Origin: Chelatococcus sp. HY11
GTDB lineage: Bacteria; Pseudomonadota; Alphaproteobacteria; Rhizobiales; Beijerinckiaceae
Direction of reading: 5' to 3'
DNA length: 64,000 nt
NCBI RefSeq assembly: GCF_018398335.1
Contig: NZ_JAHBRX010000001.1
Coordinates: forward strand, 2,410,001 to 2,474,000
In this document: positions 831-15,483 of the stretch, one piece after another
Numbering within the stretch: position 1 is the first letter of the stretch
Layout: every line of letters starts with the position of its first letter
Position numbers and translations under genes: made by a program
Notes under the pieces: model-generated
The model's input: the letters and a program-made list of their open reading frames with translations, nothing else
What the model was told of the DNA's origin: nothing
The model's database searches: none

Positions 831-2228
831 GTGAATGCTCAGACCTCTTCCGTTCTCGCGCGTATCGATGCTGATCTCGACCAGAGCCTGGAACGGCTGT
901 TCGCTCTTCTGCGCATTCCGAGCATTTCGACAGACCCGGCCTACAAGGGCGACTGTGCCAGTGCCGCAGCCTGGTTGAAGGCGGATCTCGAGGCACTCGG
1001 CTTCGATGCCACGGTCCGCCCCACACCCGGGCATCCCATGGTGGTCGCCCATCAGAAGGAGGCGGGCAACGGCCCACATGTTCTCTTCTATGGCCATTAC
1101 GACGTCCAGCCGGTCGACCCCCTCGAGCTTTGGTCCGCGCCGCCGTTCGAGCCGGCCCTGCGTGAAGATGAGACAGGCGCCAGGATCATCACCGGGCGTG
1201 GTTCATCTGACGACAAAGGGCAGTTGATGACCTTCATCGAGGCCTGCAGGGCCTGGAAAGCCGTGACCGGCGCTCTGCCCATCAAGGTCAGCATCCTGCT
1301 CGAGGGCGAAGAGGAATCGGGAAGCCCCAGCTTGAGGCCATTCCTCGACGCCAATCGCGATGAGTTGAAAGCCGATGTCGCGATGATCTGCGACACCGGC
1401 ATGTGGGATCGCGACACACCGGCGATCACCACAATGCTGCGCGGCCTCGTCGGTGAGGAGGTGGAGATCACCTGCGCCTCGCGAGACCTCCATTCCGGCT
1501 TCTATGGCGGTGCGGCGCGCAATCCCATCCATGTGTTGTCCACGATTGTCGCCGGCCTGCACGATGCGGATGGACGCGTGACGCTGCCGGGATTCTACGA
1601 CGGCGTACCCGAACTGCCCGCTGAGGTTCAGGAGCAGTGGCGCAACCTGCCCTTCGAGGAGAGCGCCTTTCTCGGGGAGATCGGCCTGGCTGATCCGGCC
1701 GGCGAGCGCGGGCGCAGCGTTCTCGAACAGGTCTGGTCACGCCCGACCTGCGAAGCCAATGGCATAACGGGCGGCTACACCGGCGAAGGGTTCAAGACCG
1801 TCATCGCCTCCAAGGCATCCTCCAAGATCTCGTTCCGCCTCGTCGGGCAGCAGGATCCGGACAAGATCCGAGCGGCCTTCCGCGCCTATGTCCGCAGCAA
1901 GGTGCCAGCGGATTGCAGCGTCACCTTCAAGGAGCATGGCGGCAGCCCGGCCATCAGCCTGCCTGTGGACGGCGAATGGCTCGGCCTGGCCCGTCAGGCA
2001 CTCGGTGCGGAGTTCGGGCGCGATACCGCGCTGATCGGCTGCGGGGGCTCGATCCCGATCGCAGGCGATTTCAAGCGCATGCTCGCCATGGATTCCCTGA
2101 TGATCGGCTTTGGCCTGAGCGACGACCGCATTCACTCGCCCAACGAGAAATATGATCTCGCCAGCTTCCATCACGGCATCCGCTCATGGGCGCGCATCAT
2201 CGGGGCCTTCGCGGCCGCGCGCGGATAA
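831..2228 (+). CDS. M20 family dipeptidase/metallopeptidase
   Basis: This 465-aa cytosolic enzyme is of the M20 (ArgE/DapE/CPG2-like dipeptidase) type and should hydrolyse a peptide or acyl-amino acid with a two-metal centre. Visible motifs are GHYDVQP at 88-94 (His89, Asp91), RGSSDDKG with the bridging Asp near 127, EGEEESGS with the catalytic Glu pair near 160-162, Asp188, and the C-terminal metal His435 in HSPNEKY. The dimerisation (lid) domain lies between about residues 200 and 320. The start is GTG at 831, preceded by AAGGA at suitable spacing. Length fits the family. It is followed at 7 bp by the nagA-like gene, so the two are probably co-transcribed. The substrate cannot be read from sequence. 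Confidence 0.88.
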   Translation: MNAQTSSVLARIDADLDQSLERLFALLRIPSISTDPAYKGDCASAAAWLKADLEALGFDATVRPTPGHPMVVAHQKEAGNGPHVLFYGHYDVQPVDPLELWSAPPFEPALREDETGARIITGRGSSDDKGQLMTFIEACRAWKAVTGALPIKVSILLEGEEESGSPSLRPFLDANRDELKADVAMICDTGMWDRDTPAITTMLRGLVGEEVEITCASRDLHSGFYGGAARNPIHVLSTIVAGLHDADGRVTLPGFYDGVPELPAEVQEQWRNLPFEESAFLGEIGLADPAGERGRSVLEQVWSRPTCEANGITGGYTGEGFKTVIASKASSKISFRLVGQQDPDKIRAAFRAYVRSKVPADCSVTFKEHGGSPAISLPVDGEWLGLARQALGAEFGRDTALIGCGGSIPIAGDFKRMLAMDSLMIGFGLSDDRIHSPNEKYDLASFHHGIRSWARIIGAFAAARG

Positions 2229-2235
2229 GCCAGCC

Positions 2236-3381
2236 ATGAGCCAGTCCTTGACGATCACGGGCAGAGATCCCGCGACAGGCCGCTCGCTCGCCATTGACAT
2301 CGCAGACGGGCTGATCGCGTCGATCACGGCGGGGCCGAGGGACGAGGGCGCGTGGCTCGCGCCCGGCCTCGTCGACCTGCAGGTCAACGGCTTCAACGGC
2401 CATGACATCAACGGCGGCGGACTGACCATCGCGACGGTCGAGGCGCTGGTGAACGCCATGCTGCGGGTTGGCGTCACGACCTTTTTGCCGACGATCATCA
2501 CGGCGTCGGAGGAGGCCATCGTCACGGCGCTCGGCGTGATCGCGGCGGCGCGCGCCGGCGATGCTCGCATTGCCCACGCGATCCCCAGCGTCCATGTCGA
2601 AGGCCCCCACCTGTCGCCGGAGGACGGCCCCCGTGGGGCGCACCCGCGTACTCACGTGCGGCCGCCAGATATCGACGAATTTCAACGCTGGCAGGCGGCA
2701 AGCGGCGGTCTGGTCGGGCTGGTGACACTCTCACCCCATTACCCGGAGGCGCCGGCCTATGTCCGCGCGCTGGCACGCCAGGGCGTCCATGTCGCGATCG
2801 GCCATACCAGCGCCGCCCCGGCCGAGATCACGGCCGCCGTGGACGCTGGGGCGACGCTTTCCACCCATCTTGGCAACGGAGCGGCGGCCACCCTCCCCCG
2901 CCATCCCAATTTCATCTGGACGCAGCTGGCCGAGGATCGCCTCGCCGCCACCTTCATCGCCGATGGCCATCATCTCCCCGCAGATACATTTCGTGCCATG
3001 CTGCGCGCCAAAGGCCTGGAGCGCGCGGTGCTGGTCTCGGATGCGGTCGCGCTCGGCGGCCTGCCGCCCGGTCTTTACGATCAGCCAATCGGCGGCCGTG
3101 TCGAGTTGACCAAGGATGGCCGGCTAGGCGTCGCCGGTACGCCATTCCTTGCCGGAGCGGTGCGCCCACTGGCCGATTGCGTCGCGCAGGCGACGATCAT
3201 GGGGGGCCTCACACTCACTGATGCCCTGCGGCTCGCCACGGTCAATCCCGGCCGCTTCACCGGCAACCGCGGCGTCATCCGGGTGGGAGCGTCGGCTGAT
3301 CTCATTCGCTTCCATTGGGCGCCCGGCGATCCGACCTTGTCGATCGAAGCCGTCTTCTCCCGCGGAGAACGGCGCGTCTGA
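2236..3381 (+). CDS. nagA: N-acetylglucosamine-6-phosphate deacetylase-like amidohydrolase
   Basis: This 381-aa protein has NagA architecture. APGLVDLQVNGFNGHD closes the small beta domain at 42-57, HVEGPHLSPEDGPRGAH carries metal-ligand Glu122, GHTSA holds His190, STHLGNG holds His211, and LVSDAVALGG holds catalytic Asp269. These are the ligands expected for deacetylation of GlcNAc-6-P to GlcN-6-P in the cytosol. The usual HLFNAM segment is replaced by HLGNGAA, a variant seen in some NagA-like deacetylases, so the exact substrate could differ. The start is the ATG just after the M20 stop. The nagB-type deaminase at 5220-5990 and the LacI system nearby support an amino-sugar role. No LacI-type palindrome is seen directly upstream. 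Confidence 0.82.
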   Translation: MSQSLTITGRDPATGRSLAIDIADGLIASITAGPRDEGAWLAPGLVDLQVNGFNGHDINGGGLTIATVEALVNAMLRVGVTTFLPTIITASEEAIVTALGVIAAARAGDARIAHAIPSVHVEGPHLSPEDGPRGAHPRTHVRPPDIDEFQRWQAASGGLVGLVTLSPHYPEAPAYVRALARQGVHVAIGHTSAAPAEITAAVDAGATLSTHLGNGAAATLPRHPNFIWTQLAEDRLAATFIADGHHLPADTFRAMLRAKGLERAVLVSDAVALGGLPPGLYDQPIGGRVELTKDGRLGVAGTPFLAGAVRPLADCVAQATIMGGLTLTDALRLATVNPGRFTGNRGVIRVGASADLIRFHWAPGDPTLSIEAVFSRGERRV

Positions 3382-3963: not shown

Positions 3964-4392
3964 AGCAAGCACCAATACTGATAAGGGGTGCGGGGAACCA
4001 TCAGCGGCTCTCATCCCGTCCATGGGCCTTGGCGCCAGCCGATACAAATGGGAAAATTATTGAAAATCAATATATTATTACATCAAGCGACTGATGATCC
4101 GAGAGAATCCCACGCCACATCTGTCAGATGCAGGTGCAACTAAAACTCCACCATCCCGCTAACGTTACTTCAAGCTCGATGACGCAGACCATGCGCTGGC
4201 CGGTATCCGGCTGAACAAGTTTGAGCTAGACTATAACCTGCGCACCATTTCCGCCCGTCCGCTTCAACTGCGGACCTGCGATATGAAGCGCGGCTTTTGA
4301 AACCGGCTTGCGTTCAAACGACTGAAGTGCATCGCCTCATATAACTTCGAGACCCTAGACTGCGAACAGTGCGTTGGGAGTGCGATAAGTCC
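3964..4392. other. Intergenic region with an orphan coding-like fragment
   Basis: About 430 bases separate the small secreted protein from the L,D-transpeptidase. The middle is unusually A/T-rich around 4050-4090. The only structured content I see is the 45-codon open stretch listed at 4166-4300. Confidence 0.5.
4166..4300 (+). pseudogene. Possible gene relic (45-codon open stretch without a start)
   Basis: Reading from TAC at 4166 to TGA at 4300 gives a coding-like peptide containing LDDADHALAGIRLNKFELDY and ending CDMKRGF. An in-frame TAA lies 6 bases upstream and there is no start codon, so this may be the 3' remnant of a decayed gene. I do not recognise the family, and chance is possible given the short length. 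Confidence 0.25.
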
Positions 4393-5145
4393 ATGATCGA
4401 GTTGAAACGCCGCAGCTTCGTCTCCGGTCTTGCGGCCGGCATCACCGGCCTTGGCCTCAGCGGCTGCGTGAGCCCGAATCCGGAACAGGCAGGCCCAGGT
4501 CCCGGTGCCGGGCGACGCATCGCCGATCGCGAGATCCCGCCTCCGGCGGACCTGCCGGCGTCCGATGGGCAGGTCGCCTCGTACTACGGCCCTGTGGATG
4601 GAGAGCGTTTCCCCATCCATGCCGTCAATCTCTCCGAGATCAACCCCGCGTACCTGCGTCGCTCGGTGGCCTATTCCACGACCGAACAGCCGGGCACGAT
4701 CGTGGTCGATCCGCGCCAGCGCTACCTCTATCTCGTCCAGGAGAACGGGCGGGCGATGCGCTACGGCGTCGGCGTCGGTCGCGAGGGTTTCGGCTGGTCC
4801 GGCGCGGCGACCATCAATTCCAAGCAGGAATGGCCGGACTGGTATCCGCCGAAGGAGATGATCCAGCGCCAGCCCGAGCTGAAGAAAGTCGCGAGCCAGC
4901 TGCAGAGCGGCCTCGGTGTGGCCGGCGGACCGCGCAATCCACTCGGCGCCCGCGCCATGTATCTGTGGCAAGGCAACAAGGACACGCTCTATCGCATCCA
5001 CGGCACTTTGGAGCCATGGACAATCGGCAAGAACGTATCGTCAGGTTGCATCCGCATGATCAACCAGGACGCGATCGATCTTTATCAGCGTGTGCCTGTC
5101 GGCACCAAGGTCGTGGTCCTGCCTGCCGGGGGCTCACACGCCTAA
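4393..5145 (+). CDS. L,D-transpeptidase (YkuD domain) lipoprotein
   Basis: This 250-aa protein cross-links or anchors peptidoglycan stem peptides (meso-DAP linkages or lipoprotein attachment) in the periplasm. The N-terminus has KRRSFVSGLAAG and a lipobox LSGC with Cys25, so it is probably exported, possibly by the Tat route, and lipidated. The YkuD domain covers about residues 100-248. Catalytic residues are visible as IHGT (His203) and SSGCIRM (Cys219, Arg221), separated by the usual spacing. The ATG at 4393 was chosen because it directly precedes the signal sequence; an ATG 24 bases upstream is possible. It appears monocistronic and converges on nagB. Confidence 0.9.
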   Translation: MIELKRRSFVSGLAAGITGLGLSGCVSPNPEQAGPGPGAGRRIADREIPPPADLPASDGQVASYYGPVDGERFPIHAVNLSEINPAYLRRSVAYSTTEQPGTIVVDPRQRYLYLVQENGRAMRYGVGVGREGFGWSGAATINSKQEWPDWYPPKEMIQRQPELKKVASQLQSGLGVAGGPRNPLGARAMYLWQGNKDTLYRIHGTLEPWTIGKNVSSGCIRMINQDAIDLYQRVPVGTKVVVLPAGGSHA

Positions 5146-5219: not shown

Positions 5220-5990
5220 TCAATCTTGGCGGCGCGGGTCCGATTCCGCGTCCAGATAAAGCCGGCAATCCGGATGCAGGCGCAATGCGCTCGCCGGGCA
5301 CGCCGTATCCAAAGGGCCCTCAAGAGCGCGTTCGACAGCCTCGCGTTTGGCCGCGCCAGGCACCACGCAAAACAGGCGGCCGGCATCGAGGAGGCGCGGG
5401 ACCGTGAGGGTCACGGCGCGCCGGGGCACATCCGCAATCGTCGCGAAGGCGCCATCATCGACCTGCTGCTGGCGGCACACATCGTCGAGCGTGACGATCT
5501 TGACCGCTTGCGGGTCCGCGAAATCAGCAACCGGCGGATCGTTGAACGCAAGATGTCCGTTGACGCCTATGCCGAGGCAGACAATGTCGATCGGTGCCGC
5601 CGCGAGGCTTGCCGCGTAAGCCGCCACCGCCGCGTCGGCGTCCGTACCGGGGTCGATCAGGTGGACGGCGGCAAAGGGCAACCGATCGAAAATCGCGCGA
5701 CGCAACCAGCTCCCGAAACGCTGGGGCGCGTCTGCGGGCAGGTCGAGATATTCGTCCATATGGAAAGCCGTGACCCGTCGCCAGTCGATGCCCGGCTCCG
5801 CGATCAGGGACTGCAACATGTCGCTCTGGCTGACGGCGGCGGCAAAGACCATGCGCACACCGGCCTGCCTTGCCAATCGCGAACGGAGCTCGGTGGCAAC
5901 GTCAGCCGCGGCGGCGCGTCCCATCTCCGGCCGCGTGTCAAAGGACAGAACGACCGGCCGCACAGCTTGCTGTCCTGCAACTGATTCCAT
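5220..5990 (-). CDS. nagB: Glucosamine-6-phosphate deaminase/isomerase family protein
   Basis: This 256-aa protein of the NagB/6-phosphogluconolactonase superfamily is expected to convert an amino-sugar phosphate to a keto-sugar phosphate plus ammonia. Visible are FHMDEYLDL with Asp79 and the signature GIGVNGHLAFNDP at 140-152. Compared with E. coli NagB (Asp141-His143-Glu148), the triad here reads Asn144-His146-Asp151, placing it in a divergent subfamily. The start at 5990 has a strong GAGAGGGAAGG ribosome binding site; in-frame starts further upstream do not. It is divergent from the LacI gene, with a palindromic operator between them. Family is secure; exact substrate less so. Confidence 0.82.
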   Translation of the reverse strand: MESVAGQQAVRPVVLSFDTRPEMGRAAAADVATELRSRLARQAGVRMVFAAAVSQSDMLQSLIAEPGIDWRRVTAFHMDEYLDLPADAPQRFGSWLRRAIFDRLPFAAVHLIDPGTDADAAVAAYAASLAAAPIDIVCLGIGVNGHLAFNDPPVADFADPQAVKIVTLDDVCRQQQVDDGAFATIADVPRRAVTLTVPRLLDAGRLFCVVPGAAKREAVERALEGPLDTACPASALRLHPDCRLYLDAESDPRRQD

Positions 5991-6100
5991 CAGGCCTTCC
6001 CTCTCGACCTCATCATTCACCCGCCGCCGCCAAGGGTGACGGCATGCCGGTTCGCGTGCCCCGGGAGGTCGCGCATCCACCGCCGGCTTATGAAACTCCT

Positions 6101-6116
6101 ATGCAACCGATTGCAT
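6101..6116. promoter_or_regulatory. LacI-family operator, site 1
   Basis: ATGCAACCGATTGCAT has perfect 6-bp arms (ATGCAA/TTGCAT) around a central CG, the classic LacI/GalR operator form. It lies between the divergent nagB and lacI-family genes and matches the sites at 7283, 15311 and 15468. Confidence 0.75.
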
Positions 6117-6236
6117 GTCAAGCCACCGAAGTTCACCCCCTCGCCCCTATGCCGCGTTCGTCAGCAAGGCGATTTTCCGCTAGTCTCTTCGTATGATCAG
6201 ATATTTCGAGAACAGTCGGGTGCGGGAAAAGGCTTG

Positions 6237-7244
6237 ATGGACGACGAAACATCCCGGCGGCGCGTACCCACCATCGATCAAGTGGCAGCCTTGGCGGGCG
6301 TTTCGCGCGCCACCGTTTCACGCGCCTTCACCCGGCCGGAAATGTTGAGCGAAGCCACTGTCCAGCGGGTCAAGGCCATTGCCCGGGACGTCGGCTATGT
6401 CCCGAATCAGGTTGCGCGCGCGCTGAGCACCGGCCGGCACGGCAATCTGGCGCTCATCGTTCCCGATGTCGCCAATCCCTTCTTCCCCCCGCTGATCAGG
6501 GCCGCGCAATTGCGCGCCGACGAAGCCGGCTTCTGCGTTTTCCTCGGCAATTCCGACGAACTGGCGGCGCGTGAGGACGTCCTTGTCGGCCGTTTCACCA
6601 GTCAGGTCGAGGGAATGATCCTCGTGTCCTCGCGTCTCGATGAAGAGCGTATCCGGCTCTACGCCGAACGACGGCCGATCGTGCTCGTCAATCGCGACGT
6701 CGCCGGCATTCCGAGGGTACTCATCGACAGCGCGACGGGCATCACGGCCGCGCTCGCACACCTCATCGACCATGGCCATCGCCGCATCGTCTATGTCAGC
6801 GGACCATCGGCCTCGTGGTCCAACCAGCAGCGCCGCCTCGCTTTGCGCCGGGAGGCGGCCAAGCGTGGAGTCGAGATCATCGCCATCCCGGCGCGCCCTC
6901 CGACACATGAGACCGGCTACGCGGCAACGGGGCAGATTCTGGCCTCCAAGGCCACGGCCGCGCTAGCCTTTGACGATCTCGTCGCGCAGGGGCTTCTCGC
7001 GGGCCTGGCCGAACGCGGCATCGACGTGCCCGGCCAGTTCAGCGTCGTCGGCTGCGATGACGTGCTCGGAGCGACCACCTATCCCCCGCTCACGACCGTC
7101 TCCGCGCGTTGCAAGGAGGCGGGCCAGGTCGCGGCCGACCTGCTCATGGATCTTTTGAAGGTCAAAGCCATGCGCGACGTCCGCTATGTGCTTGAGTCCC
7201 ATCTCGTCGTGCGCGGAACGACAGGGCCGGTCGCCGTCTCCTGA
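6237..7244 (+). CDS. LacI-family transcriptional regulator
   Basis: This 335-aa regulator has an N-terminal helix-turn-helix (PTIDQVAALAGVSRATVSRA, about residues 10-30) with the hinge helix motif NQVARALS. A periplasmic-binding-protein-like sensor domain follows (LALIVPDVANPFFPPLIRAA onward, about 60-330). The ATG at 6237 is preceded by GGGAAAAGG. The gene is divergent from nagB and immediately upstream of the sugar ABC operon. Palindromes of the type this family binds flank it on both sides, so it probably represses nagB, the transporter operon and the aminotransferase operon, and may autoregulate. The inducer is unknown, probably a sugar or sugar phosphate. Confidence 0.93.
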   Translation: MDDETSRRRVPTIDQVAALAGVSRATVSRAFTRPEMLSEATVQRVKAIARDVGYVPNQVARALSTGRHGNLALIVPDVANPFFPPLIRAAQLRADEAGFCVFLGNSDELAAREDVLVGRFTSQVEGMILVSSRLDEERIRLYAERRPIVLVNRDVAGIPRVLIDSATGITAALAHLIDHGHRRIVYVSGPSASWSNQQRRLALRREAAKRGVEIIAIPARPPTHETGYAATGQILASKATAALAFDDLVAQGLLAGLAERGIDVPGQFSVVGCDDVLGATTYPPLTTVSARCKEAGQVAADLLMDLLKVKAMRDVRYVLESHLVVRGTTGPVAVS

Positions 7245-7277
7245 TCGGTCTTCGTGCCGGCGATCGACGAACGCCGC

Positions 7278-7306
7278 TTGACACGCAACCGGTTGCACGA
7301 CACTTT
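7278..7306 (+). promoter_or_regulatory. Candidate sigma-70 promoter of the sugar ABC operon
   Basis: TTGACA at 7278-7283 is a consensus -35 box. With a 17-bp spacer the -10 would be CACTTT at 7301-7306, which is weak. The LacI-type palindrome fills the spacer, an ideal position for repression. Confidence 0.5.
7283..7298. promoter_or_regulatory. LacI-family operator, site 2
   Basis: ACGCAACCGGTTGCAC contains the perfect 12-bp palindrome GCAACCGGTTGC. It lies 55 bases before the binding-protein start and overlaps the putative promoter. Confidence 0.78.
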
Positions 7307-7352
7307 TTCAGGAGAGGCGATCCAGAGCGCCAGCGTCAGAGGGGATCCGATC

Positions 7353-8654
7353 ATGACATTCGCAGGTTCGACATCCGGTAAGCCCGCACGGAAGCGGCCC
7401 ATCCTTGCCATCACAGCGGCGGCGTTCTTTGCGTCCATGCTGCCCGCCCAGGCCGAGAAGCTCACGATCTGGGGCGGCTGGCCCGAGATGGAACCGTTCT
7501 ACAAGCGCGTCGGCGAACAGCTGAAGAAGAAATATCCGGATCTGGAAGTCAGCGTCGAACTGATCGCACTGCGCGAACATGAAAAGCGCAATGCACTCGC
7601 GCTGCCTTCAGGGGCGGCTGCCGACGTGATCGAGATGGAGGTCGAGGCGACCCGCTATCTGGAAGGCGGCCTTGTTCCCGCAGCGCCGGACAATGTCGTG
7701 AAGTTCGTCAAGGACGGCAAGCATTTCGACAAGTTCTTCCAGGACAGCGTCACCTTCGAGGACAAGATCTACGGTGTGCCGCTGTTCCGCGGACAGACCG
7801 CGCTCTACTACAACACCGACATGTACGCGAAAGCGGGCCTCTCCGGCGCGCCGAAGACCATGGAAGACTACACCCCTTACGCCGAAAAGCTGACGCAGCG
7901 CGATGCGCAGGGCAAGCCGACGGTCAGCGGCTGGAGCCTGCGCCTGTCGGGCGGCGGCCAGGGCGTGGCCGAGAAGTTCTGGATCAACCTGTTCCAGTTC
8001 GGCGGCAATCTGCTCGAGGAGAAAGACGGCAAATGGAAGGCCGCCTTCGCCAACGAGGCCGGTCGCAAGGCTTTCAAGCAGTATGTCGAGAATGTTCAGG
8101 TCCTGAAGACCGTATCGCCGGAGATGAAGGCGGATGCGGAAGCTTTCGAGCTTGAGCAGACGGCCATGTTCATCCGCGAATCCTGGGTGATCGGCGACAT
8201 CGCCAAGAAGTCGCCCAATCTGAAATATGCCACCGCGCCGCTGCCGCGCGGCTCCATCGTCATCCCGGTCAATCTCTATGTGCCGACGAAGCCGGGCAAG
8301 AAGGCCGACCTCGCTTGGGAATACGTCCTCCAGGCGAACGAGCCGGAAAACCTGCAGTGGCTTCTCGACAACATCGGCTGGTTGCCGAACCGGAAGGATG
8401 TCGATTACTCCGCCATCATCGCAAAGACGCCCGCCTTCGGCGCCTTCGTCAATTTCCCCAGTGACTACAAGTTCTTCTCCCTGCCCGCCATCGCACCGGC
8501 CAGCGAGATCCTGACCCGCGTCGCGGCGCGCCTCGTGGACGGCTATACCAATCCGAAGCTCCAGAGCGACGCGGCCATCGACGCCTTCCTCAAGGAAGCG
8601 GCGGCGGAGGTCGATACCATCTTGAAGCGCGAAGGCCTGCTCGCCACGCCGTAA
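7353..8654 (+). CDS. Sugar ABC transporter substrate-binding protein
   Basis: This 433-aa periplasmic binding protein belongs to the extracellular solute-binding family 1 (UgpB/MalE type, carbohydrate uptake). The signal peptide ends at AQA before EKLTIWGGW, about residue 34. The mature N-terminus with alternating hydrophobic strands (LTIWGGW, VSVELIALREHEKRNALAL) and ADVIEMEVEATRYLEGG is typical of CUT1 binding proteins. The ATG at 7353 has AGAGGGG upstream; an in-frame start at 7254 would spoil the signal peptide and read through the operator. It is the first gene of the LacI-controlled operon. The ligand is not readable; context suggests an amino sugar or acylated amino-polyol. Confidence 0.9.
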   Translation: MTFAGSTSGKPARKRPILAITAAAFFASMLPAQAEKLTIWGGWPEMEPFYKRVGEQLKKKYPDLEVSVELIALREHEKRNALALPSGAAADVIEMEVEATRYLEGGLVPAAPDNVVKFVKDGKHFDKFFQDSVTFEDKIYGVPLFRGQTALYYNTDMYAKAGLSGAPKTMEDYTPYAEKLTQRDAQGKPTVSGWSLRLSGGGQGVAEKFWINLFQFGGNLLEEKDGKWKAAFANEAGRKAFKQYVENVQVLKTVSPEMKADAEAFELEQTAMFIRESWVIGDIAKKSPNLKYATAPLPRGSIVIPVNLYVPTKPGKKADLAWEYVLQANEPENLQWLLDNIGWLPNRKDVDYSAIIAKTPAFGAFVNFPSDYKFFSLPAIAPASEILTRVAARLVDGYTNPKLQSDAAIDAFLKEAAAEVDTILKREGLLATP

Positions 8655-8686
8655 TCCGGCGTCGCGCAACACGTGCCTTCAGCGCA

Positions 8687-8725
8687 TCGCCGGTGTGTTT
8701 CTTCTCCCCCGGAACACACCGGCGA
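8687..8725 (+). promoter_or_regulatory. Intra-operon hairpin between binding protein and permease
   Basis: TCGCCGGTGTGTT at 8687-8699 pairs perfectly with AACACACCGGCGA at 8713-8725 (13 bp, 13-nt loop) and is followed by ATTTTCTT. It has the form of an attenuating terminator or RNase-stalling structure that favours binding-protein expression over permease expression. Confidence 0.75.
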
Positions 8726-8741
8726 ATTTTCTTGGTCCCGA

Positions 8742-9662
8742 ATGCGGAGAGAAGGCGTGCGGGAACTGGCCGGTACCTGGCATCGCAAGGGCTTTACTTT
8801 CGCCATCCTGGCGCTCCTGCCCGCGCTCATCATCTATACGCTCGTCCGTTTCATCCCCATTATCGAGACGTTGCGTCTCAGCCTGTTCCAGTGGAACCTG
8901 ATCTCACGCCGCAAGCCCTTCATCGGGCTAGACAACTTCCGGGAACTCTTCACGGACTCCCTCTTTCTCGAGGCGTTGCGCAACACCACGATCATCGCCT
9001 TCGGCGTGCTGGCCATCACGGTGCCGCTTGGCCTTGTCCTTGCCGCGCTCATCCACCACCGCACACGGTCGCGTTTCGCGGGCTTTTACGAGACGTCGAT
9101 CTTCATTCCGCACGTCGTCTCGCTCGTGCCCGCGGCCATGGCCTGGAAATGGATATTCGACGCGCGTCTTGGCCCTCTCAATACCCTCCTCGGCTTTTTC
9201 GGGCTGCCGCCGCAGGCCTGGCTTTTCGACCCCGTGCTCGCCATCATCTGCGTCATCGTTCTGTGCTCATGGCAAGCGCTGGGTTATGCCGTCCTCATCT
9301 TCCTCGTCGGCTTCAAGAACATTCCCCAGTCGCTCTACGAGGCGGCGCGGCTTGACGGCGCCTCGGCGCTGCAATGCTTTCGGCACATTTCCATACCGCA
9401 GCTCAAGCCGGTCCTTCTCTATGTTTCGGTGATCACGCTGATCGCGGCCTTCAACATCTACGCGCAGGTTTTCGTTCTGGCATCGGATTCGCAAGGCGCG
9501 CCGGGCCGGTTGGTCCGCGTGCTGGTGCTCGACATGCTAGAGAACAGCTTCCGCAACTATCGCGTGGGCTATGCCGCCGCCGAGGCGGTCATCCTGCTCG
9601 CCATCGTGCTCGCCCTCACCGCCATCCAGTTCAGAGTCTTCCGCGAAAAGGGCCGCCCATGA
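8742..9662 (+). CDS. Sugar ABC transporter permease (CUT1, UgpA/MalF type)
   Basis: This 306-aa inner-membrane permease has six predicted hydrophobic segments, beginning with FTFAILALLPALIIYTLV. The cytoplasmic EAA loop reads EAARLDGASALQCFRHISIP and contacts an ATPase subunit. The start is uncertain. ATG 8742 lies just after the intergenic hairpin and gives a normal length, whereas GTG 8673 would place the hairpin inside the coding region. It overlaps the next permease by ATGA. No ATP-binding subunit is encoded in this operon or elsewhere in region 1. Confidence 0.88.
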   Translation: MRREGVRELAGTWHRKGFTFAILALLPALIIYTLVRFIPIIETLRLSLFQWNLISRRKPFIGLDNFRELFTDSLFLEALRNTTIIAFGVLAITVPLGLVLAALIHHRTRSRFAGFYETSIFIPHVVSLVPAAMAWKWIFDARLGPLNTLLGFFGLPPQAWLFDPVLAIICVIVLCSWQALGYAVLIFLVGFKNIPQSLYEAARLDGASALQCFRHISIPQLKPVLLYVSVITLIAAFNIYAQVFVLASDSQGAPGRLVRVLVLDMLENSFRNYRVGYAAAEAVILLAIVLALTAIQFRVFREKGRP

Positions 9663-10531
9663 GCGACAGGTCCCTCCCCGCCGCCGAGGCCGGCCCAAGC
9701 GCGACGACAGGCGAGCGCGTCCTGAACGGCGTGATCGACGTCATCCTGATCGTCTTCTGCATCCTGATGCTGCTGCCGCTGGTGTTCCTGGTGTCGAACG
9801 CCTTCAAATCGCCGCAGGAACTGCTGCAGTGGCCACCCACCATCATTCCGCGTCAAGCGACACTGGAGAACATCACATCGGTTCTTGCCGAAACGCCTCT
9901 TCTGCGCTGGATCGGCAATACCTTCCTCTTCGCGGTCCTGTCGACCGTAGCCATCGTCACGACCTCGGCGGTGTCGGGCTATGTGCTCGGCAAATTCCGG
10001 TTTCCCGGTGTGCACATCATCTTCGGCATGATCCTCGCGACGGCCATCATCCCGTTCGAGGTCTATATGATCCCGCTCTACCTCGGGGTGCAGCAGCTCG
10101 GCCTTCTGAATTCGCTGTGGGGTTTGCTCATCGGCTATCTCGTGATGAGCTTCGGCATCTTCCTCATCCGCCAGTATGTCATCGCGTCAATTCCGGACGA
10201 ACTGATCGAGGCAGCCCGCATCGACGGGGCGAGCGAGGGCTGGATCTTCCTGAGAATCGTCGTGCCGCTCATGCGTGGCCCGCTGGGGACGCTCGCGGTG
10301 CTCGCCTTCTTCCAGTCCTGGACGGCGTTCACCTGGCCGATGATCATCACAGCCACCAAGGAAAGTTACACGCTGGAAGTCGGGCTCGCGCTGTTCCAGA
10401 CGGGCTTCACCGTCGATCTCGGCCGGCTCAGCGCCGCTGCGGCGCTTGCTCTCCTGCCCAGCATCCTGTTCTTCGCCTTCATGCGCCGCAATTTCGTGCA
10501 GGGCGTGGCATCGAGCGGGCTGAAGGAATAG
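9659..10531 (+). CDS. Sugar ABC transporter permease (CUT1, UgpE/MalG type)
   Basis: This 290-aa partner permease starts at the ATG overlapping the stop of the first permease (ATGA), which implies translational coupling. Hydrophobic segments include VIDVILIVFCILMLLPLVFL near the N-terminus. The EAA loop is EAARIDGASEGWIFLRIVVP. It ends 13 bp before the ceramidase-like gene, so that hydrolase is part of the transport operon. Confidence 0.9.
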   Translation: MSDRSLPAAEAGPSATTGERVLNGVIDVILIVFCILMLLPLVFLVSNAFKSPQELLQWPPTIIPRQATLENITSVLAETPLLRWIGNTFLFAVLSTVAIVTTSAVSGYVLGKFRFPGVHIIFGMILATAIIPFEVYMIPLYLGVQQLGLLNSLWGLLIGYLVMSFGIFLIRQYVIASIPDELIEAARIDGASEGWIFLRIVVPLMRGPLGTLAVLAFFQSWTAFTWPMIITATKESYTLEVGLALFQTGFTVDLGRLSAAAALALLPSILFFAFMRRNFVQGVASSGLKE

Positions 10532-10544
10532 CGGAGGGTTTGCC

Positions 10545-11783
10545 ATGCGTTTTGCCTTTGCCAGGCGAGAGATTACGCCCGCGGCACCTACCGAACTCTC
10601 AGGGTTCGCAAGTCGCGCGGGGCTTGCCACCGGCACGCTCGATCCGCTGACGGCCCGGCTCCTTCTTGTGGAAGTGGCCGGGAGGCGCGTCGCCATCCTC
10701 GCCTTTGACCTCATCGGCGTGCCGGAAGATTTCCGAGCCCGGCTCGCTTCACATCTCCCTGCCGATCTCGATCTCGTGCCTTGCGCCACCCACACCCACG
10801 CCGGCCCGCCTGTGCTCGCCCGCTCCATGCTCGGCCATGCCGATCCGGCCTATGCGGACCGCCTCGTCGCGACGACCGTCGACCTCCTGCGAGAGGCCAC
10901 CGCCGCGCTGCAGCCGGGCCGCATTGACGCAATCAAAGTGCCTGTGCCCGGCATCGCCCATAACCGCCGCCTCGACGATGGCCCCGTCGATCACAACGCC
11001 GATGCGGTGGCCTTCTGCACGGAGGATGGCGCGCTCGGCGCAGTCTGGATGAACTTCGCCTGCCATCCCGTCGTGCTCGGGCCGGACAATCTTCGCTACA
11101 GCGCGGATTTTCCCGGCGCCGCACGCCGCCGGCTGGAGGATCTTCTGTCCGCACCGGTGTTGTACACGACAGGCTGCTGTGGACAGATCAATACCGGCCA
11201 CAAGACGATGGATTCGATCCGCCAGAGCGGGATGTCCAAACGTACGCCCGAAGAAGCTGAGCGGATCGGGACCCTGCTGGCAGATACGGTCGCGCCCGGT
11301 TTGCACGGGTTGAAGGGCCGGCCCGTGGAGACGCTCGCCTATGGCGAGACGTCACAGACCGCCGCTTTCACCGCCGTCGAGACCTCCATGCGTGTCCGGA
11401 TCGCCCATGATGCGTCCCAGGTCTTGGCGAACCCCGCCGCGAGCTTTGGCGAGAAAGCCATGGCGCAGATCGACCGCGACTGGCTGACACATGAACACGC
11501 CGGCACCACCCTGACTGTGGGCGCGCTCCGGCTGGGCGATTTCACGGCCTTTTTCCTGCCCGGCGAGGTCTTCGTCGATCAGGCGCTGGCCTTGCAGGAG
11601 AAGGTCCCGGGAGCGTTGGTCGTCGGCTATGCCTATACCAATCCAGGCTATATCCCTCCCCTCACCGCCATCCCCGATGGCGGCTATGAAGTCGATATCG
11701 CCTGGCGTCCCTATGGTACGCCCGGTCCTTTCGCGCCCGGCACCGCGGAAGCTCTGGCAGAGGCTGCGCTGACGCTGGTCTGA
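10545..11783 (+). CDS. Neutral/alkaline ceramidase-fold amidohydrolase, cytosolic
   Basis: This 412-aa protein matches the catalytic domain of the neutral/alkaline non-lysosomal ceramidase family, a zinc N-acyl amide hydrolase. Visible are ATHTHAGP at 81-88 (His83, His85), NFACHPVV with His174, the TTGCCGQIN loop, FLPGEVF (Glu ligand) and YAYTNPGYIPP (Tyr). Unlike true ceramidases it has no signal peptide and lacks the C-terminal immunoglobulin-like domain, so it should act in the cytosol on an imported compound. It is the fourth gene of the LacI-controlled ABC operon. I infer removal of an N-acyl group from an imported acylated amino sugar or amino-polyol; the substrate is unproven. Confidence 0.8.
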   Translation: MRFAFARREITPAAPTELSGFASRAGLATGTLDPLTARLLLVEVAGRRVAILAFDLIGVPEDFRARLASHLPADLDLVPCATHTHAGPPVLARSMLGHADPAYADRLVATTVDLLREATAALQPGRIDAIKVPVPGIAHNRRLDDGPVDHNADAVAFCTEDGALGAVWMNFACHPVVLGPDNLRYSADFPGAARRRLEDLLSAPVLYTTGCCGQINTGHKTMDSIRQSGMSKRTPEEAERIGTLLADTVAPGLHGLKGRPVETLAYGETSQTAAFTAVETSMRVRIAHDASQVLANPAASFGEKAMAQIDRDWLTHEHAGTTLTVGALRLGDFTAFFLPGEVFVDQALALQEKVPGALVVGYAYTNPGYIPPLTAIPDGGYEVDIAWRPYGTPGPFAPGTAEALAEAALTLV

Positions 11784-11812
11784 CGGATGCGCGTCAACAT
11801 GACGGTCGCTCT

Positions 11813-11854
11813 GGATCCTCTTTCCCGGCGCTACACGCCGCCGGGAAGGGATCC
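11813..11854. terminator. Bidirectional hairpin between convergent operons
   Basis: TTCCCGGCG pairs with CGCCGGGAA around CTACACGC, and GGATCC flanks both ends, giving an extended inverted repeat. It lies between the ceramidase-like gene and the convergent dehydrogenase gene. There is no strong U-tract on either side. Confidence 0.55.
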
Positions 11855-11935
11855 ATGAACATCGCCGGCCTAACTGCGTCCGATCAAGGCCGAGGCCTCA
11901 TGGATGACGCAGTGAAACCGCGCTGACAGCCGCAT

Positions 11936-12952
11936 TCACGCCCACTCCAGCGCCTTGCCCCCGGCGGCCGCGCTCTCCTGCGCGAGGATGGCGATGCGCG
12001 TCGCGCGCAACGCGTCGGCCGTCGGCACGGCGAGCGGCTCGCCCTTGGTCAGATGGTCGAGCGCGAAACGCGCCGGCGGTTCACCGGGTGGCAACGGCCA
12101 CTCGCGCAAGGGCGTATCATGGGTTTCGACCAGGAGCTTGTCCTCGGCGAAGAGCACATCCGCCCGGCCACGGGTGCCGGTGATGCGCATGGCGTAATCC
12201 CCATGACGGGGCGAGGCCTCCGGCTGCAACCAGTCGACCTCGATGGCGATCTGAGGTCCTCCCTTGACGGTGAGGACCGCGCGTCCAGCGCCGGCAAAGT
12301 GCCGCTCGCCCGGCAGGGCCCCGACACCCGGCGCGTCGATGGCCGACACCCAGCCCGAGACCTTGCCCCGCGTGCCGCCGACGAGCCACAAGGCGAGATC
12401 GATATCGTGCACGGTGAGATCGGCGAGGATGCCGCCATATTGTCCGGCGTCGAACATCCAGTCCGGACGCCGCGCGGCATGGAACTTGTGCGGGCCGGTG
12501 GCATGGATCGTGACGATCTCGCCGATAACGCCATCGGCGATGAGGCCGCGCAGCGCCAGCGTGACCGGATAGAAGCGCTTCTCCAGCATCAACGCGACAA
12601 GCGGCCGCCCGGCAAGAGCTGCCTCCAGCGCATCAAGCCCGGCACGCGTGACCGCAAGCGGCTTGTCGACGATGGCGAAGATCCCGCGTTGGGCGAGTGT
12701 CGCGACGATGCCGGCGCGCGCGCCGAATTCCGTCACCACGGAAGCCGCATCGACGCGGTGCCGCTCGAGCATCGCCTCCACATCGGCGTAGCCGGGCGCC
12801 CCGGTGCGCTGCTCAAGGGTCGCACGGCGCGCCGGATCATGTTCGACGACGGCAGCGATGCCGACGTCTTCGCGGCGGGCGACCTCATCGAGCACATAGT
12901 CCACATGCTGGTGCGCCGCGCCGATGACCGCGATTTCAATACGCCTTGCCAT
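11936..12952 (-). CDS. Gfo/Idh/MocA family NAD(P)-dependent oxidoreductase (1)
   Basis: This 338-aa enzyme has an N-terminal Rossmann domain (EIAVIGAAHQH, a degenerate GxGxxG) and the family's KP motif as DKPLAV (Asp96-Lys97-Pro98). The C-terminal sheet domain includes DLTVHDIDLALWLVGG. Such enzymes oxidise or reduce sugars, inositols and amino-sugar derivatives at a ring hydroxyl. It is the last gene of a three-gene minus-strand operon behind a second MocA-type gene and an aminotransferase. The first glycine pattern (GAAHQH) differs from its neighbour's GPGAIGQ, so the cofactor pocket may differ. The substrate is unknown. Confidence 0.87.
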   Translation of the reverse strand: MARRIEIAVIGAAHQHVDYVLDEVARREDVGIAAVVEHDPARRATLEQRTGAPGYADVEAMLERHRVDAASVVTEFGARAGIVATLAQRGIFAIVDKPLAVTRAGLDALEAALAGRPLVALMLEKRFYPVTLALRGLIADGVIGEIVTIHATGPHKFHAARRPDWMFDAGQYGGILADLTVHDIDLALWLVGGTRGKVSGWVSAIDAPGVGALPGERHFAGAGRAVLTVKGGPQIAIEVDWLQPEASPRHGDYAMRITGTRGRADVLFAEDKLLVETHDTPLREWPLPPGEPPARFALDHLTKGEPLAVPTADALRATRIAILAQESAAAGGKALEWA

Positions 12953-12955
12953 GGC

Positions 12956-13996
12956 TTATCCCTCCGCGCCGACGGGAAATTCATCGGTCGAAACCGCGCG
13001 TCCTTCCTCCGACGAACGGTAGATGGCGCTTGCCACCCGAACGGCCTCGAAACCGTCGCGGAAACTCACGGCCGGCGCGCGCCGCTCGTGGATGGCGGCG
13101 ATGAAATCCTGCCATTGCTGCACATGGCCGGCGATGCCGATATCACCCGGATTGGCGGCACCGCTCGCAATGCCGGAGCTTGCGCCCGGCGCCGGCACAT
13201 CCGTGAAATCCCAGCGCACGACGCTTGCGTGCTCCACCGTGAAGGCCCCACGATCCGTAAACATGCGCAGACCGGCGGGGTGGCCCGGCGGCGTCGCCGT
13301 CGTGGTGACGAGCGTGCCGATGGCGCCGCTGGCGAAGGTCAGGATCGCCGCCGTCGTGTCCTCGATGGGCAGGTCGTGGCCCAGTGTCGTCGCGAGCCCT
13401 TGCACGCGCACCACCGGGCCGAACAGCCAGAGCATCAGGTCAAGGCTGTGAACGCCCTGGTTGAACAGCGAGCCACCGCCATGGCCGATCTCGGCGCGCC
13501 ACGACTTCTCGCGATAGTACTCCGGCGAGCGCCACCAATGCACATCCGCCTCGATCAGCCGGGGCGCGCCGAGCCGCCCCGCGCGCAGGGCATCATGGAT
13601 ATAGACATGCTGCGGCTCGAGCCGCCGCTGCGAGACGACGCCACAGGTGAGCCCGGCCTGTTCGCCCTGCACGACGAGCCGGGCCGCTTCCTCCCAGTCC
13701 ACGCACAACGGCTTCTCGACGAGCACATGCCGCCCGGTCGCGATAGCCTGGGCCGCCGGCGCGTAATGCGCGCCGCTCGGTGTCGCGATGACGACGATAT
13801 CGAGATCGGCACCATCGATCATCGCCTCCGCTGTCGCGAACCATTGCGCTGCCTCGCCGCCAGCAAGCGCGGCAGCGTCCTCGGGCGCACCGCCGGCCAC
13901 AGCCGCAAGCCGCAGGCTTTCGATCTCCGCAATGGCGCGCGCATGTGTCTGGCCAATCGCACCCGGGCCGATCAATCCAACCTTGAGATCCGGCAT
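12956..13996 (-). CDS. Gfo/Idh/MocA family NAD(P)-dependent oxidoreductase (2)
   Basis: This 346-aa paralogue starts MPDLKVGLIGPGAIGQTHAR, giving a canonical GxGxxG at residues 10-15, with VEKPLCV (Glu94-Lys95-Pro96) and HGGGSLFNQGVHSLDL in the substrate-binding region. The start at 13996 has GGGCGAGGGG upstream and lies 16 bp after the aminotransferase stop; longer in-frame starts would overlap that gene. With the first MocA protein it could form a two-step dehydrogenation, or oxidation and re-reduction around a keto-sugar transamination, as in NtdC/NtdA-type amino-sugar chemistry. Confidence 0.88.
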   Translation of the reverse strand: MPDLKVGLIGPGAIGQTHARAIAEIESLRLAAVAGGAPEDAAALAGGEAAQWFATAEAMIDGADLDIVVIATPSGAHYAPAAQAIATGRHVLVEKPLCVDWEEAARLVVQGEQAGLTCGVVSQRRLEPQHVYIHDALRAGRLGAPRLIEADVHWWRSPEYYREKSWRAEIGHGGGSLFNQGVHSLDLMLWLFGPVVRVQGLATTLGHDLPIEDTTAAILTFASGAIGTLVTTTATPPGHPAGLRMFTDRGAFTVEHASVVRWDFTDVPAPGASSGIASGAANPGDIGIAGHVQQWQDFIAAIHERRAPAVSFRDGFEAVRVASAIYRSSEEGRAVSTDEFPVGAEG

Positions 13997-14012
13997 CCCC
14001 TCGCCCTTCCCT

Positions 14013-15197
14013 TTAACCCAACGCCTTCGCCATGGCCGCGATGACCGCCGCATGCACCACTTCATCGGCGAGCAGGACGTTCTGCGGCAGCCACCAGCTT
14101 TGCGCGGCGGTTTCTTCCGTGACGGGCAGATCATCCACCGGCCGGCCGCCGAGCGCGGCGACCTCGGCTCGGATGGCTGGCATGCGATTGATCGGCGGGT
14201 AACCGGCGCTTGCCGGAATGCCGGCCTCCTGCAGCGCGGCCACGACGGCATCGCGCAACGTCTTGTCGCGGCGGGCCGTCGCGAGCTGCCAGGGCATCAG
14301 ATGACGCGCATGCCGGGTGGTACGCGCGGGATCCACGACCTGGACCGGCAGGCCCTCGGCTTGCGCCAAGCCGGCGAGGCTCTTCCAGCCCGCAGCACGC
14401 GCCGCATCCATCTCGTTGAGCGTGTCGAGCATCGCATCGGCTAGCACGCCCTGCATCTCGGTCATGCGCAGGTTCCAGCCGACGCGGTCGTGCTGATACC
14501 AGCCACCGCCACGGCTGCGGCCGGCGTTGTGCAGTGACCAGATGATATCGCCGAGCTCGGCGTTATCTGTGAGTACGGCTCCGCCCTCGCCCGCCGCGAC
14601 ATTCTTGCTGGTCTGGAAGCTTAGCGTCGCCATGTCGCCGAGCGTGCCGACGCGGCCGTCAACATGCGTGGCGTCGATCGCCTGGGCGGCGTCCTCGATC
14701 ACGACGATGCCCGATCCGGCAAGCTGTTGCCTGATGGCATGAGCCTCCGCCACCGCGCCTGCGAGATGCACGGGAATGACGGCACGCGTCCTGGCGCCGA
14801 CCTTCCGCCGCACGTCGTCCGGATCGATCATCAGCGTGGCGGGATCGATCTCGGCAAAGACGGGGATGGCGCCGAGAAGCAACGGGGCGCTCGCCGTCGC
14901 AAGGAAGGTATAGGCGGGCACGATGACTTCGTCGCCGGCGCGCACGCCCGCTGCCTTCAACGCAAGTGCGATGGCGATCGTGCCATTGGTGCAGCAGGTG
15001 GCCGCGCGCACGCCGTGCAAGGCCGCGAGCCGTCTGCCGAGCGCTTCCACGACATGCCCTTGCGTGCTGCCCCACAGGCCCGAACGCACGACTTCAAGCA
15101 TGCGGCCCTCGACCTCCGCCGACGGCTTTGGCGGCCATGGAGGTATCAGACGCGCAAGTTCCGGTTGTGCCACGCCGGCTTTCAATACCTCTGCCAT
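14013..15197 (-). CDS. DegT/DnrJ/EryC1/StrS family PLP aminotransferase
   Basis: This 394-aa sugar aminotransferase family protein shows the N-terminal cofactor loop CCTNGTIAIALALKA, Asp169 in VIEDAAQAI (pairs with the pyridine nitrogen) and Lys198 in SFQTSKNVAAGEGG as the PLP Schiff-base lysine. The start at 15197 has CAGGACG directly upstream; upstream in-frame codons read poorly. The family usually transaminates keto-sugars, either to build or, by reversal, to degrade amino sugars. It is first in the operon with two MocA dehydrogenases, downstream of two LacI-type palindromes, which argues for a catabolic or inducible role rather than cell-surface biosynthesis. Confidence 0.9.
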   Translation of the reverse strand: MAEVLKAGVAQPELARLIPPWPPKPSAEVEGRMLEVVRSGLWGSTQGHVVEALGRRLAALHGVRAATCCTNGTIAIALALKAAGVRAGDEVIVPAYTFLATASAPLLLGAIPVFAEIDPATLMIDPDDVRRKVGARTRAVIPVHLAGAVAEAHAIRQQLAGSGIVVIEDAAQAIDATHVDGRVGTLGDMATLSFQTSKNVAAGEGGAVLTDNAELGDIIWSLHNAGRSRGGGWYQHDRVGWNLRMTEMQGVLADAMLDTLNEMDAARAAGWKSLAGLAQAEGLPVQVVDPARTTRHARHLMPWQLATARRDKTLRDAVVAALQEAGIPASAGYPPINRMPAIRAEVAALGGRPVDDLPVTEETAAQSWWLPQNVLLADEVVHAAVIAAMAKALG

Positions 15198-15310
15198 CGT
15201 CCTGAACCTCCACCTGTGCGCCCCTCGAACGCCGCCCGCGGCCGCTCTTCGATGAGCCCTGCACATTCGGGTTGGCCATGCTATTTCGCTCTATTCCGCG
15301 GCAAAGGTCA

Positions 15311-15326
15311 ATGAAACCGATTGCAT
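15311..15326. promoter_or_regulatory. LacI-family operator, site 3
   Basis: ATGAAACCGATTGCAT differs from site 1 by one base. It lies 114 bp upstream of the aminotransferase start. Confidence 0.7.
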
Positions 15327-15467
15327 AAAATGAACCAAGGCCAAAACGCTACGGTGGCGCCACATTTTCTCCAGCAAATAAAGTGGTTTCCGTGAGGGAG
15401 TCCGCCCCCTGCGATAGCGCTTCGTTTCATGGAAAGACGCCATCTTGTCATGCCATCCAGGCACTTC

Positions 15468-15483
15468 ATGCAACCGATCGCAT
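15468..15483. promoter_or_regulatory. LacI-family operator, site 4
   Basis: ATGCAACCGATCGCAT differs from site 1 by one base. It lies 157 bp from site 3, close to 15 helical turns, which would suit a repression loop. Confidence 0.68.

Follow-up and report, generated by a model that had tools for sequence, protein, structure and literature searches.

Four related 16-bp sites and the genes arranged behind them, found in a 64,000-nucleotide stretch of the Chelatococcus sp. HY11 genome (contig NZ_JAHBRX010000001.1, positions 2,410,001 to 2,474,000; hereafter, the window), make it very probable that this region encodes a local regulon for amino-sugar use under a LacI-family regulator. The sites, their conservation, the position of a −35-like box beside them and the families of the genes were observed here, and from these we predict repression and infer the effector, the substrate and the order of reactions. 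The four sites, referred to as operators 1 to 4, are listed below with their positions in the window.

Operator 1, 6101-6116, no strand: ATGCAACCGATTGCAT, between the divergent nagB and lacI genes, with TTGAC adjoining on the nagB side.
Operator 2, 7283-7298, no strand: ACGCAACCGGTTGCAC, 54 bp upstream of the start of the solute-binding protein (SBP) gene, with TTGAC adjoining.
Operator 3, 15311-15326, no strand: ATGAAACCGATTGCAT, 113 bp upstream of the aminotransferase start.
Operator 4, 15468-15483, no strand: ATGCAACCGATCGCAT, 157 bp past operator 3, in the common intergenic region.

An earlier note on this DNA had described four 16-bp palindromes at these places, and both their positions and their differences were confirmed. 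Operators 3 and 4 each depart from operator 1 by one base, and operator 2 shows three mismatches to operator 1, with the GCAACCGGTTGC core in common. A central CG is found in all four sites, each of them 16 bp long. The symmetry, however, is imperfect, since 2 of the 16 positions of operator 1 do not match its reverse complement and operator 2 is symmetric over its inner 12 bases only. When 16-mers with up to three mismatches were counted, nine strand-wise matches were observed in the window against 0.61 expected by chance, and none of 100 shuffled sequences reached nine, the shuffle maximum being three. Eight of the nine matches are accounted for by the four operators, each counted on both strands. 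The remaining match (5975-5990), which overlaps the nagB start with three mismatches, was rejected as an operator and is probably due to chance. The loose 12-mer GCAANCNNTTGC, with one mismatch allowed, was not enriched in the window (25 found, 21.9 expected); the signal therefore resides in the full 16 bp, and a 16-mer matrix was chosen for that reason.

The genes of the cluster and its presumed partner, with start codons chosen from the reading frames, are as follows.

5220-5990, minus strand: variant NagB-type deaminase (Pfam Glucosamine_iso, 75.3 bits; NCBIfam nagB, TIGR00502, 99 bits against a cut-off of 236.9).
6237-7244, plus strand: LacI-family regulator (Pfam LacI, PF00356, and Peripla_BP_3, PF13377, above cut-off).
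7353-8654, plus strand: SBP of a sugar ATP-binding cassette (ABC) importer (Pfam SBP_bac_8; distant trehalose/maltose-binding relatives in the PDB).
8742-9662, plus strand: ABC permease 1 (Pfam BPD_transp_1).
9659-10531, plus strand: ABC permease 2 (Pfam BPD_transp_1).
10545-11783, plus strand: ceramidase-fold hydrolase, fourth gene of the ABC operon (Pfam Ceramidase_alk, PF04734, 22.6 bits, cut-off 32.1; profile; model).
11936-12952, minus strand: Gfo/Idh/MocA oxidoreductase 2 (family match).
12956-13996, minus strand: Gfo/Idh/MocA oxidoreductase 1 (family match).
14013-15197, minus strand: DegT/DnrJ/EryC1-family sugar aminotransferase (Pfam, 284.5 bits).
2152-3381, probable start near 2236, plus strand: NagA-like deacetylase (183.4 bits against the TIGR00221 cut-off of 225.65), a partner by context.

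The earlier note had proposed at least eight genes in three transcription units. The regulon itself is supported, and it appears slightly larger, probably comprising nine genes behind four promoters (nagB; lacI; SBP, both permeases and the ceramidase-like gene; aminotransferase and both Gfo genes). Gene context also supports its reading as an amino-sugar regulon with nagA as a partner, the nagA-like gene lying outside the 5220-15483 span that the note covered and 1.8 kb off the cluster in Chelatococcus. Among the nine cluster genes and nagA, Pfam and NCBIfam matched no kinase and no ABC ATPase, and both must come from elsewhere. No NCBIfam cut-off was reached by the LacI regulator.

Conservation of the sites was examined in relatives. 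A search for LacI orthologues at E ≤ 1e-60 recovered 8 of 99 family genomes, the own genome counted. A total of 47 loci was collected, 40 from GTDB genomes and 7 as larger stretches around family matches, from which L070-L079 (LacI identity of at most 36%) and L082 and L085 (duplicates of L040 and L068) were dropped; L070 and L071, scanned before removal, gave no match above 11.0. The 35 retained loci carry a LacI orthologue at 45-98% identity and belong to several proteobacterial genera and to Micromonospora. As the earlier note had proposed, these loci were scanned with a weight matrix built from the four window sites, taking a score of at least 18 as a strong match and defining as upstream region the 320 bases before to 30 after the start of a tblastn match to any of the ten cluster genes. 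The scan gave 66 strong matches in 686,973 bases, of which 64 fell inside upstream regions, which make up 79,449 bases or 11.6% of the total. Of 12 column-permuted control matrices, eleven gave no match and one gave a single match.

At least one strong site was present in the upstream regions of 33 of the 35 loci. The sites were conserved before all three units named in the earlier note, being found upstream of lacI in 31 of 35 loci, of the SBP gene in 22 of the 23 loci bearing it, and of the aminotransferase in all four loci bearing it, three of which are sister Chelatococcus. The operator 2 site recurs in the sister loci L080, L081 and L040, and a site was found upstream of the Gfo genes in Micromonospora. 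The two strong matches outside upstream regions belong to Pluralibacter, where TGAAATCGATTTCA, or a sequence one base off it, precedes a major facilitator superfamily (MFS) transporter gene followed by nagB and nagA.

The footprints left in close relatives bear on whether the aminotransferase operon belongs to the regulon at all. Across four Chelatococcus genomes, operators 1 and 3 lie within longer invariant blocks, operator 3 being kept in full, and operator 4 retains 15 of 16 bases amid diverged DNA. It could be argued that LacI control stops at nagB and the ABC operon and that the aminotransferase/MocA operon serves another pathway, its two sites being coincidental. Such a view would draw on the presence of the aminotransferase in just 4 of 35 LacI loci and on the lack of any match to it at E ≤ 1e-110 among 296 genomes of the order and 397 of the phylum, sets that are sparse and evidently exclude the sister genomes. 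It is nevertheless very improbable given the retention of operators 3 and 4 just described, a 20.1-bit site found 53 bp upstream of the aminotransferase in genome G025, and the Gfo genes, which Bradyrhizobium carries within its nagB-nagA operon and which follow a site in Micromonospora.

The position of the sites relative to a promoter element points to the probable mode of action. TTGAC, the core of the sigma-70 −35 box, was counted when it occurred within the six bases next to a site plus the first two of the site itself. It adjoins 49 of the 73 sites scoring at least 15, those of the window included, and 1092 of 200,000 random positions (0.5%), the latter being mostly coding and not matched promoters. 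At operator 3, TTGACC starts at the last base of the site on the minus strand. In Microvirga, TTGACA lies eight bases before the site, which would accordingly cover the −10 element. At the sites adjoined by TTGAC, the operator fills the spacer between the −35 and −10 elements, an arrangement that fits repression by occlusion. Action of LacI as an activator, or a requirement for DNA looping between operators 3 and 4, seems hardly likely. The 157 bp that separate these two operators are near 15 helical turns, but their distance in the other three Chelatococcus genomes is 157, 156 and 160 bp, and a rigid loop was set aside because of this variation; moreover, many loci have a single site per promoter region, and the −35-like box beside most sites suits repression.

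In the proposed model of repression, LacI dimers would occupy the 16-bp operators overlapping or adjoining the −35/−10 region when the sugar is absent and would thereby block RNA polymerase at the promoters of nagB, lacI and the ABC and aminotransferase operons. The repressor would come off in response to the amino sugar itself or to a phosphorylated derivative, and the ABC importer would then take the sugar in. The ceramidase-fold hydrolase, the Gfo/Idh enzymes and the aminotransferase may reshape it, and the NagA- and NagB-like enzymes would deacetylate and deaminate it into central metabolism.

Besides the makeup of the random set mentioned above, several points weigh against this reading. 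No complete promoter emerged from a strict sigma-70 scan; the −10 element is accordingly weak or absent. The loci L059 and L067 (2 of 35) have no site of at least 18 in an upstream region, and L083 and L084 are weak, the former reaching 15.7 at best before lacI and the latter 13.6 before the SBP gene with none before lacI. The 35 loci are not independent, since 16 are Bradyrhizobium-like and three are sister Chelatococcus; because the matrix was trained on the window sites, the sister loci add little and the distant genera carry the weight. The window nagA has no operator, the best matrix score over the gene and 1500 bases on each side (L110) being 4.1. Finally, the own-genome candidates that were scored consisted of 37 one-mismatch core matches and 15 sites from a degenerate pattern; four of them outside the locus reached at least 18 (23.2, 21.6, 20.0 and 19.4), two of these outscoring operator 2 (21.4), so that score alone fails to single out the four operators. 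In favor of the regulon, all four outside candidates lie inside open reading frames (ORFs).

Counts of the degenerate pattern RYGMRAYCGRTYKCRY in eight genomes (4-38 matches each vs 0-3 for a reversed control) were set aside as regulon evidence because the pattern also catches many ATCGAT-type palindromes. The own genome further encodes a LacI paralogue of 39% identity (G000:C2:594399-595376; L108) with its own upstream GCAAGCGATTGC site, which differs from the operator core by a single base. Its neighbors, judged by eye, include SBP, permease, sugar-isomerase-like and Gfo genes, which would form a second, parallel LacI sugar locus.

The partners of LacI bear on the kind of substrate that the regulon would serve. 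With identity cut-offs set for this analysis, NagB accompanies LacI in 33 of the 35 loci, NagA in 32, the SBP and permeases in 23, Gfo in 21, the ceramidase-like protein in 8 and the aminotransferase in 4; a NagB of 39% in L068 and a ceramidase-like protein of 31% in L064 fell just below the cut-off. Bradyrhizobium has the order nagB-nagA-gfo1-gfo2 behind a single site. The importer seems to have been exchanged between loci, as judged from its type, which is ABC in some, a Na+ symporter in Inquilinus and an MFS transporter in Pluralibacter.

In three loci, a gene resembling SIS-domain sugar isomerases lies between nagA and nagB (L083:8111-8899, L063:5463-6233 and L064:8216-9004). It forms one sequence cluster, scores above the cut-off of PRK02947 (NCBIfam) in the two tested, and is not among the window cluster genes. 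As to the surroundings of nagA in the window, it is preceded by an ORF resembling, by eye, an M20-type peptidase, and an ORF at 4369-5145, murein L,D-transpeptidase-like by eye, lies between nagA and nagB both there and in the three other Chelatococcus genomes.

The constancy of nagA and nagB as LacI partners would suit a regulon for plain N-acetylglucosamine (GlcNAc), the chitin sugar, in which the regulator is the LacI counterpart of NagR or NagI. Precedents exist: NagI of Stenotrophomonas maltophilia is a LacI repressor of nagA and nagB induced by N-acetylglucosamine 6-phosphate (PMC13055268), and NagR is LacI-type in gammaproteobacteria (PMC5343134), including Shewanella (PMC2996990). Permeases are found in those systems, and the available portions of the three papers (PMC13055268, PMC2996990, PMC5343134) do not mention an aminotransferase, Gfo/Idh or ceramidase-fold gene. 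NagQ, which controls GlcNAc genes in alpha- and betaproteobacteria, and thus in the same bacterial class, belongs to the unrelated GntR family and binds tandem rather than palindromic sites, according to the part of the source consulted (PMC5343134). NagI/NagR and NagQ appear, by analogy, to be the closest functional parallels. As for the targets of NagR/NagI-type regulators, a site precedes nagB here, and in Bradyrhizobium one precedes nagB with nagA next in order, but nagA of the window genome lacks a site.

The enzymes themselves argue in another direction. Neither Nag protein of the cluster reaches its family cut-off, the deaminase being NagB-like only, and at the position where NEPG stands in the deaminase 2bkv, all 16 aligned NagB rows (the window and 15 of the 35 loci) read NDPP. 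No second genome copy of the NagB-type deaminase was found at E ≤ 1e-5. A second nagA, at 307.1 bits, clears the TIGR00221 cut-off of 225.65, and NagK- and NagB-II-like genes, best matches that stay below cut-off (221/370 and 322/430 bits), lie side by side elsewhere in the genome. The stretches around these genes held no matrix match above 13.1 bits. To our knowledge, GlcNAc use needs neither the aminotransferase nor the two Gfo/Idh enzymes nor the ceramidase-fold hydrolase. By their sequences, the window NagA and NagB are not a standard GlcNAc pair; since both miss their cut-offs and the canonical NagA and the NagK/NagB-II-like genes lie elsewhere, the substrate may not be plain GlcNAc. A plain-GlcNAc regulon keeps an appreciable chance of being right, short of even.

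As a single sequence, the ceramidase-fold hydrolase had no match in the PDB at E ≤ 0.1, and it missed the gathering cut-off of the neutral ceramidase family. A profile of six homologues matched neutral ceramidases (E 1.9e-17 and 6e-13) over the N-terminal half only, and an AlphaFold2 model built from these homologues (predicted local distance difference test, pLDDT, 69.8; predicted template modelling score, pTM, 0.78) shared their fold. Foldseek returned four PDB chains at E ≤ 0.001, all of them neutral ceramidases (best E 2.8e-15), represented by 2zws and 4wgk, with a query template modelling score of 0.66-0.71 and a root-mean-square deviation of 7.2-8.6. The likeness to neutral ceramidases is thus one of fold and distant sequence relation; these have 630-672 amino acids, whereas the window hydrolase has 412 and no obvious signal peptide by eye. 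All six homologues share His83, His85, His174 and Glu341, and some of these residues are presumably counterparts of the ceramidase zinc ligands. Ceramide is unlikely as its substrate because the gene sits in a sugar operon.

The nearest PDB relative of the aminotransferase is AHBA synthase, with perosamine synthetase and enzymes of the WbpE type ranking lower, and the nearest match of Gfo 1 is 3q2k/3q2i, which we take to be WlbA, a 3-dehydrogenase of a UDP-GlcNAc acid. These relatives suggest 3-amino-sugar chemistry; among the literature matches listed for kanosamine, that sugar was unmentioned. We put forward tentatively, as a rather doubtful reading, that the regulon encodes a route not yet described for some unusual amino sugar, for example a 3-amino sugar or an N-acylated 2,3-diamino sugar. 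If such a route existed, N-deacylation in the cytoplasm would fall to the ceramidase-fold hydrolase. The aminotransferase and the Gfo/Idh enzymes, whose relatives build 3-amino sugars, would work degradatively, and the last steps would be left to a NagA and a NagB different from those for GlcNAc, all under a single LacI repressor spread across phyla and exchanging its transporter. The repressor and its 16-bp operator provide a sequence handle tying enzymes of uncertain function (the hydrolase, two Gfo/Idh enzymes, the DegT aminotransferase and the variant NagA/NagB) to one substrate, which opens an amino-sugar pathway found in Chelatococcus, many Bradyrhizobium and other bacteria to direct testing.

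Systems of this kind are well known. Ravcheev et al. 2014 (PMC4052901) catalogued local LacI-family sugar regulons that, in the part of the paper available, are alike in having an even 16-bp palindrome with a central CG and sites before the regulator and neighboring operons. The two tandem sites in Inquilinus, 22 bp apart, match the spacing peak reported there for LacI regulators (PMC4052901). The available main text of that paper has no word beginning with nagB, glucosamine or aminotransferase, and N-acetylglucosamine occurs once, as an effector. A literature search by motif letters and gene combination turned up no publication on this regulon; since RegPrecise and supplements were outside its scope, an earlier listing is possible.

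The regulator itself seems to have a mobile history. The recognition stretch VSRATVSRAF, kept or nearly kept in 17 aligned LacI rows (the window and 16 of the 35 loci), speaks for the regulon. When 44 LacI proteins were placed in a tree, those of the 35 loci and that of the window grouped together with the paralogue outside, with moderate support (87/85). The order of genera in the tree departs from species kinship, with the gammaproteobacterium Granulosicoccus placed beside two alphaproteobacterial genomes, which suggests that the LacI regulator moved by transfer. The LacI proteins of L052 ('Frankia sp. RB7') and L066 ('Mycobacterium sp. KBS0706') are nested in the Bradyrhizobium and Inquilinus groups, which probably reflects wrong record names or mixed assemblies. 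In a related genome, a strong site, ATGCAACCGATTGCAC (24.9 bits; G079:C1:387193-387208, L095), was observed away from its LacI locus.

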